Assembly: GCF_014698235.1 (NCBI RefSeq)
Contig: NZ_JACJSP010000010.1
Span: 1 to 64,000, forward strand
Source of the DNA: Limnothrix sp. FACHB-406
GTDB lineage: Bacteria; Cyanobacteriota; Cyanobacteriia; CACIAM-69d
Length of the DNA: 64,000 nt
Direction: 5' to 3'
The notes beneath the pieces are model-generated. The model saw only the letters and a list, made by a program, of their open reading frames with translations. It was not told the DNA's origin and did not search any database. How positions within the stretch are numbered: the stretch's first letter is position 1; every line of letters begins with the position of its first letter. Both the position numbers and the translations under genes were made by a program. Shown here piece after piece: positions 28,164 to 30,029 of the stretch.

Positions 28164-28364
28164 CTAAGCCGGTTGGCGAAACAGCGTTGATAGATAAACC
28201 CGCGACACCCGCCGATCGCTCTCCCCGTTTTGCAACAGAAAAAGCGACAACGCCGCTGCAAACACCCGGTTCAAATCCCAGTCGGGATGCACTTCCAAAT
28301 AATCCTTAAGGGCTTCGTGGAGTTCTTCAGGAATTTCCGCCACGATGCTAACTGTGCCACTCAT
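28164..28364 (-). CDS. DUF2811 small protein
   Basis: A 66-residue cyanobacterial protein of the DUF2811 family. Its pattern is IVAEIPEELHEALKDYLEVH, DWDLNRVFAAALSLFLLQNG and RRVSRVYLSTLFRQ. It resembles a ribbon-helix-helix-like small fold, but DNA binding is not shown. The frame is open to 28427, but the family starts at MSGTVSIVAE, so ATG 28364 is chosen (GGGG about 8 nt upstream). Function unknown. Confidence 0.8.
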   Translation of the reverse strand: MSGTVSIVAEIPEELHEALKDYLEVHPDWDLNRVFAAALSLFLLQNGESDRRVSRVYLSTLFRQPA

Positions 28365-28459
28365 CGGCAAAACCCCAGCCACATTGGTAAGCGGCAACAT
28401 TGTGCGCCAGGCTCCCGGCGATGTCAATGCTGCGAAATATTGCGATCCAGTTCAAAAAC

Positions 28460-28540
28460 TCAGAATTTTTTCTGAATAGCACATATTTTTACTCATTTAA
28501 TTTACATAAAGTCATGAAAAATCGCCTTTTATGAGAAGTC
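28460..28540. other. AT-rich block next to the DnaA-box cluster
   Basis: About 80 bp with unusually many A and T (including ATATTTTTACTCATTTAATTT), in contrast to its surroundings. Together with the DnaA-box-like sites 60 bp away it resembles a DNA unwinding element. It could equally be the promoter region of the DUF2811 gene. Confidence 0.4.
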
Positions 28541-28600
28541 GGGCGATCGTCCAAAACAATCCCCAACTGAACGACAAACCGTATCGTTGGCGACATAGCC

Positions 28601-28663
28601 TGTGGAAAACTCCGTCATTTCTGTGGAAAACTTGGGGGTCTTCTGTGGAAAACCTGTGGAAAA
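28601..28663. promoter_or_regulatory. Cluster of four DnaA-box-like sites (TTTTCCACA)
   Basis: Four exact copies of TGTGGAAAA (complement TTTTCCACA) at 28601-28609, 28622-28630, 28644-28652 and 28655-28663, all in one orientation. Start spacings are 21, 22 and 11 bp, close to whole helical turns. TTTTCCACA is the consensus reported for DnaA boxes at the Synechococcus origin. The cluster lies about 100 bp upstream of trpB and next to an AT-rich block. It may be an origin, a DnaA titration site or a DnaA-controlled promoter. Confidence 0.65.
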
Positions 28664-28763
28664 CTTTCCCCCAAGATAAGAATTTCCCCTTTGCAAAATG
28701 ATTTGTATCCTCAGAAATCCTAACCGGGGGCCTTGGATCGTCAGCCCAGCGCCCAATGCGATA

Positions 28764-30029
28764 ATGGAGGTGTTGAATTCAGCCCAGCTAGTCGTGACCG
28801 TAACCCCGCTCCGTTCCGCCACCTTCAATGCCCAAGTGCCCGATGCCCTCGGCCGGTTTGGCCAGTTCGGCGGCAAATACGTTCCCGAAACCCTGATGCC
28901 CGCCCTGGCTGAGTTGGAGCGGGCCTACGAGCACTATCGGCACGATCCAGACTTTCAAGCGGAACTGCAAGGGTTGCTTCAGGACTATGTGGGTCGCCCC
29001 AGCCCGCTCTACTTTGCCGAGCGACTGACGCAGCACTACGCCCGCCCCGACGGCAGCGGCCCGCAAATTTACCTGAAGCGCGAAGACCTGAACCACACGG
29101 GCGCACACAAAATTAACAACGCGATCGCCCAAGCCCTCCTGGCCAAGCGGATGGGCAAACAGCGGATCATTGCCGAAACCGGAGCCGGTCAACACGGCGT
29201 GGCCACGGCCACCGTTTGCGCCCGCTTTGGCCTCGATTGCGTGATTTACATGGGCATCCATGACATGGAGCGTCAGGCCCTGAACGTGTTCCGCATGAAG
29301 CTGATGGGTGCAGAAGTGCGACCCGTGGAAGCGGGAACCGGCACGCTGAAGGATGCCACCTCGGAAGCGATTCGCGACTGGGTGACCAACGTGGAAACCA
29401 CCCACTACATCCTGGGTTCCGTGGCTGGCCCCCACCCTTACCCGATGATGGTGCGCGACTTCCACGCCATCATTGGTCAGGAAACCCGCCAACAGTGCCA
29501 AGCCAAATGGGGCGGACTGCCAGATATTTTGCTGGCCTGCGTCGGCGGTGGCTCCAATGCTATGGGGCTGTTCCATGAGTTCGTGACGGAACCAACCGTG
29601 CGGATGATTGGCGTGGAAGCGGCCGGCGAGGGAGCCGAAACCGAAAAGCACGCGGCTACCTTGACCAAGGGCCGGGTGGGCGTGTTGCATGGGGCCATGA
29701 GCTATTTGCTGCAAGATGGCGACGGCCAGGTCATTGAGGCCCACTCAATCAGTGCTGGGTTGGACTATCCCGGTGTGGGCCCGGAACATGCCTACTTGAA
29801 GGATGCGGGACGTGCGGAATACTACAGCGTGACGGATCAGGAGGCGTTGGATGCCTTCCAGCGGGTGTCGCGTCTGGAGGGAATTATCCCGGCGCTGGAA
29901 ACAGCCCACGCCTTTGCCCATCTGGAAAAACTTTGCCCGACCTTGGAAGGTAGCCCCAAAATTGTGATTAATTGTTCGGGCCGGGGCGATAAAGATGTGC
30001 AAACGGTGGCTAAGGTGTTGATGCCTTAG
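28764..30029 (+). CDS. trpB: Tryptophan synthase beta chain
   Basis: About 421 residues. It joins indole and serine to make tryptophan, using PLP. The PLP lysine is in [20 protein letters not shown]. Other blocks are [39 protein letters not shown], the phosphate-binding [12 protein letters not shown] and the C-terminal [13 protein letters not shown]. It is full length and of the TrpB1 type that pairs with TrpA. The frame is open from 28698. ATG 28764 is my choice, but a downstream GTG (28794) before [13 protein letters not shown] is also possible. trpA is not adjacent. The upstream DnaA-box cluster may affect its expression. Confidence 0.94.

Follow-up and report, generated by a model that had tools for sequence, protein, structure and literature searches.

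A conserved DnaA-box array upstream of the DUF2811 gene as a putative regulatory element in cyanobacteria

The cluster of four DnaA boxes studied here is predicted, with a probability of roughly 0.8, to be a DnaA-binding regulatory array for the DUF2811 gene that acts on the promoter of this gene. Comparison of cyanobacterial genomes brought out the array, its geometry, its link with DUF2811 and its dependence on the DnaA/oriC system.

Box cluster in the window and in the genome

The window is the whole 64-kb stretch of DNA analysed (C10:1-64000), and the genome consists of 4.5 Mb in 38 contigs. As the original prediction had described, the window contains four exact copies of TTTTCCACA in one orientation, at steps of 21, 22 and 11 bp; the strand that carries them is the minus strand. 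The box nearest the DUF2811 promoter (28601..28609) was used as the anchor (position 0) and is conserved in the aligned families; the other three, also exact matches, are located 21 bp (28622..28630), 43 bp (28644..28652) and 54 bp (28655..28663) out from it. Exact TTTTCCACA occurs nowhere else in the window. Copies with one mismatch numbered 24, against 22.5 expected from shuffles; therefore, the signal in the window is one of clustering and not of a general TTTTCCACA excess. The genome-wide count suggested earlier gave 72 exact copies, whereas the reversed control pattern occurs 22 times. Three prominent clusters were found in the genome: C13:44875-45653 (12 boxes), the array of the window (4 boxes) and C2:195734-195784 (3 boxes).

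The AT-rich block reported beside the boxes was recovered at 28454-28510, with 81% A+T, a value reached by 0.04% of the equal-length stretches of the window. It forms the middle of a larger conserved region, and the whole element exceeds the range of 28460-28663 given before, its limits being the outer motif at about 28684 and the promoter -10 at about 28399. Transcription around the boxes is divergent, as had been noted, DUF2811 being encoded by the minus strand and trpB by the plus strand. The window also lacks dnaA and dnaN, again in agreement with the prediction; dnaA was located on contig C16 and dnaN on C13. Elsewhere in the window, a gene of the Uma2 family (PF05685; 26583-27155) adjoins an amine-oxidase-family gene resembling zeta-carotene desaturase.

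Organization and geometry of the element

Alignment of the family representatives revealed a single layout, in which AATTCTTATC is followed by the boxes, an inverted box, an HLR1-like repeat and TTGACA-N17..19-CACAAT. In the window, the outer motif AATTCTTATC is located at 28675..28684 on the minus strand; it is kept in 67/78 named loci, in most families and in G154, a genome without dnaA. A weak inverted DnaA box, identified by sequence match, lies at 28558..28566 on the plus strand (minus strand: TTGGGGATT). Such an inverted and usually weak box was present at +44 to +46 after the last box in 71/78 named loci, and in family f17 it is an exact TGTGGATAA. On the minus strand, the promoter-like elements are TTGACA (-35-like; 28422..28427), 182 bp from the anchor box, and CACAAT (-10-like; 28399..28404), 17 bp from TTGACA. 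The likely target of the array, the DUF2811 (PF10929) gene of 66 aa, occupies 28164..28364 on the minus strand, with an in-frame ATG at 28400 as a possible alternative start. The divergent neighbour trpB covers 28698..30029 on the plus strand, with an uncertain start codon (28698 or 28764); 14 nt separate its first ATG from the outer motif of the array.

Up to five boxes were found per locus, at steps of 11, 11, 21-22 and 21 bp, and weaker forms (TTTTCCCCA, GTTTCCACA) are frequent at the outer positions. Box slots recur across loci at about -21/-22, -32/-33 and -43/-44, where chance would give 0.09 matches per position. The last exact box and ATTGACA are 181.4 +/- 4.9 bp apart (77 loci; the spread is descriptive), and the observed values (161, 171-174, 181-183, 190-195 and 203 bp) differ mostly by steps of about one helical turn. 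Most family representatives have 181-184 bp, with exceptions that include 172-175, 187 and 196 bp. The distance from ATTGACA to the start codon was 205 +/- 48 bp in 77 loci, which means that the leader varies. The element thus resembles a DnaA-controlled promoter in that a box cluster lies upstream of a gene and holds a fixed position relative to a promoter element.

The HLR1 (RpaB)-like direct repeat TTTACATA-AA-GTCATGAA (28501..28518, plus strand) lies inside the AT-rich block and matches 13/16 positions of the consensus used for scoring, KTTACAWW-N2-KTTACAWW (PMC13421787), a level that some shuffles reach. At about +91, families f3 and f8 have a full 16/16 match, and the named loci mostly score 13-15/16. 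RpaB sites that activate are found at -66 to -45, and those that repress lie over the start site (PMC13421787). The HLR1-like site is about 110-120 bp upstream of the start predicted from the TTGACA promoter, outside -45 to -66; therefore, either the RpaB input or the choice of promoter may be wrong.

The family representatives also share a conserved block like AAACCCTGATTCTTTCGT, flanked by the HLR1-like repeat on one side and TTGACA on the other (about +113 to +133, counted from the anchor), which might belong to a second promoter or to another factor. An Rfam search of the region gave STnc290 below threshold (22 bits vs 60), and this match was rejected. An RNA hairpin drawn by eye from the inverted repeat CATTG...CAATG was also discarded, its arms being missing in some families.

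Distribution of the array in the class

In a first comparison, three boxes in a row were sought in 39 relatives and the loci were read by tblastn; the non-origin clusters were mostly located upstream of DUF2811 or past the 3' end of guaA. The search was then made in 116 cyanobacterial genomes of the class, where at least 95 triple-box clusters were found and sorted by neighbouring gene. The clusters listed comprised 31 at dnaN, 27 in front of DUF2811, 26 past guaA and 11 in other places, so that 84/95 fell at three loci; those at DUF2811 came from 10 families. Orientation was constant among the listed clusters, being that of the DUF2811 strand in 27/27 and opposite to the guaA strand in 26/26. 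Two of the triple-box clusters were located at a lytic transglycosylase-like/NDH subunit 2 locus (L066 4046-4096) and at an FAD oxidoreductase/trypsin-PDZ protease locus (L067 3990-4040).

Of the 80 named DUF2811 loci, which are mostly from Nostocales and are not independent, 78 have one or more exact boxes upstream on the strand of the gene. Together, the 80 loci have 112 such boxes, nearly all of them between -300 and -550, and no exact box on the opposite strand from -1500 to +800. In 20 more genomes from 19 families, in which DUF2811 lacks a triple cluster, the same-strand upstream box was exact in 16 and had one mismatch in 4. About 20 families show the layout, and the small-genome family f2 also has boxes. 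Genomes of family f16 that have two DUF2811 copies and a cluster carry the cluster at one copy.

DUF2811 protein

DUF2811 was found in 115/116 genomes of the class and in none of the 38 genomes from the other classes of the phylum. The aligned proteins share the invariant core HPxWDxxRVxxAALSLFLxQxG. With an alignment led by the protein of the window as query, the closest named record was that of Limnothrix sp. CACIAM 69d, whose DUF2811 is identical. The AlphaFold model is weak (pLDDT 66, three helices), and comparison with the PDB by fold and by sequence gave no match; consequently, no fold is claimed. A ribbon-helix-helix suspected by eye in the first 45 residues was not confirmed by Pfam or structure search. 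DUF2811 was not found in viral contigs, and none of the papers searched dealt with DUF2811.

Box respelling and loss of dnaA

In family f17 (loci L176 and L206-L217), seven genomes were searched for closely spaced TTATCCACA pairs, and all matches were at dnaN or DUF2811 (7/7 genomes). Among the six dnaN regions examined in this family, five have 9-10 copies of TTATCCACA and zero copies of TTTTCCACA, and that of G075 has both spellings. Six DUF2811 arrays of the family use TTATCCACA only, the inverted box included. The spelling has changed jointly at oriC and at DUF2811, which would be expected if one protein reads both.

Cyanobacteria without dnaA are known (PMC7198777). Genome G154 (locus L222) gave no dnaA match and retains DUF2811 together with the outer motif and the ATTGACAA promoter. 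Zero boxes within one mismatch were found in the 1200 bp upstream of its DUF2811 gene, and the outer motif was 203 bp from ATTGACA, versus mostly 245-248 bp elsewhere. The boxes thus behave as sites that depend on the DnaA system, being respelled together with oriC in 7/7 genomes and lost in a genome without dnaA. Since G154 keeps the promoter, DnaA probably modulates transcription rather than enabling it; judging from this genome, which retains both gene and promoter, DnaA would not be strictly needed for DUF2811 expression.

The class members G151 and G157, which lack DUF2811 in the phylum sample, also gave no dnaA match. For the joint loss of dnaA and DUF2811, Fisher's test gave p = 0.0015 from very small numbers, with three dnaA-less genomes and two pooled samples, in the second of which four genomes were checked for dnaA. 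The fragmented assembly G031, with dnaA present and no DUF2811 match, counts against the regulatory reading.

Alternative explanations

The original prediction had proposed part of a replication origin, a DnaA titration locus or DnaA-controlled expression of trpB. A role as part of the origin, or as a second origin, would agree with the identical box, the helical phasing and the AT-rich block. However, an oriC-like cluster of 12 exact boxes lies on another contig (C13:44875-45653), with 11 of its boxes within 240 bp and dnaN starting right after it. The dnaN side is the usual location of the cyanobacterial oriC, which uses the same box (PMC4674748), and the array of the window is not the main box cluster beside dnaN or dnaA. 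In other genomes, moreover, the dnaN and DUF2811 clusters coexist far apart, and the origin reading is extremely unlikely. Control by DnaA was the part of the prediction that gained support, with the boxes placed in a regulatory element that has strong comparative support; the target would be DUF2811 and not trpB. The boxes do lie 35-100 bp upstream of trpB in Limnothrix, but trpB was found beside the array only in this genus, and the conserved distance is that to the DUF2811 promoter. The neighbour on this side in other genera is an MscS channel, QueC, a photolyase-related protein or a GHMP kinase. A literature search for a trpB link found nothing, and when plasmid records were searched with the trpB region, the trpB gene alone gave matches. 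Control of trpB as the main role is very unlikely, and trpB is an incidental neighbour.

The array could instead be a titration or DnaA-recycling site that acts on replication, with DUF2811 as a passive neighbour. A compact, phased multi-box array accompanied by other conserved motifs throughout the class would suit such a site, as would the second conserved cluster beyond guaA, for which no promoter role is obvious. Against this, the distance to the promoter element is fixed while the leader varies, and the strand and the DUF2811 neighbour are constant. In E. coli, datA, DARS1 and DARS2 are non-oriC sites with 3 to 6 DnaA boxes, datA and DARS2 also having sites for other proteins, and datA and the DARS sites keep their distance from oriC (PMC4585315). 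The DUF2811 array shares with them the form of a non-oriC DnaA-box array and differs in that its distance to dnaN, taken as a proxy for oriC, ranged over 1-48% of the chromosome in 19 genomes, the fixed distance being that to the promoter. We regard passive titration as unlikely overall, and titration and control of DUF2811 may both apply. Chance or a simple repeat, which the shuffle-level number of one-mismatch copies in the window would allow, is practically negligible given that strand, place and spacing are conserved across many families.

Proposed mechanism

Under the preferred reading, a regulatory array for DUF2811, DnaA would bind boxes one or two helical turns apart and so be aligned on one face of the DNA, and the inverted box 45 bp further on would complete the array. 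The DnaA complex would act over the fixed 182 bp on the TTGACA promoter, probably through a bend or loop, with the HLR1-like (RpaB, light/redox) site lying between array and promoter. DUF2811 output would then follow the state of DnaA, coupling transcription to the state of replication, and would also follow the photosynthetic redox state if the HLR1-like site is real. We infer that DnaA binds the boxes in this organism, that the DNA loops and that RpaB has an input; whether DnaA activates or represses is likewise inferred. At 182 bp upstream, the array is a long way off for activation of the usual kind, which counts against the model. Modulation of a promoter that could also work without DnaA is the favoured form of the model.

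Comparison with known systems

In Bacillus subtilis, sda has DnaA boxes upstream of the gene of a very small protein and is activated by DnaA (PMC4447404, PMC8203912). The cyanobacterial array would be similar in placing a DnaA-box array upstream of a tiny-protein gene under putative regulation. It differs in gene, phylum and geometry, the fixed 182-bp spacing and the HLR1-like site being its own. The B. subtilis DnaA regulon, with boxes in eight intergenic regions, likewise has intergenic clusters away from oriC, but it involves other genes, whereas here one layout extends across the oxygenic cyanobacterial class. With the cyanobacterial oriC at dnaN the array shares the box, the 11/21-bp steps and the joint spelling change in f17; unlike oriC, it has fewer boxes, is not beside dnaN and is tied to DUF2811.

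The second non-origin cluster, beyond the 3' end of guaA and on the opposite strand, was found in nine families among the clusters listed (L032 6735-6785, corresponding to G000 C2:195734-195784, and L186-L200). Five other genomes that were checked lack it. The gua operon of E. coli is repressed by DnaA (PMC8203912), and this second cluster recalls that link between DnaA and guaA, although in cyanobacteria the boxes are found past the 3' end of the gene.

Significance

The papers searched contain no earlier report of a DnaA array at DUF2811, and those on cyanobacteria describe DnaA-binding tests at origins only. The reason why dnaA is retained in cyanobacteria whose replication is independent of DnaA and oriC has been stated as unclear (PMC7198777). 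As a guess, DUF2811 may be an effector of replication or of the cell cycle. A broader and tentative idea, which we hold to be possible but on balance doubtful, is that the DUF2811 protein serves DnaA as a dedicated cyanobacterial partner or effector, its gene having been wired to DnaA since the early oxygenic cyanobacteria. It would link replication with the light/redox state via DnaA and RpaB, and would help to explain why dnaA is kept where replication does not depend on it. A class-wide DnaA array that goes with one promoter and disappears with dnaA points to a concrete target gene, and it gives the DUF2811 family a likely place in replication control.
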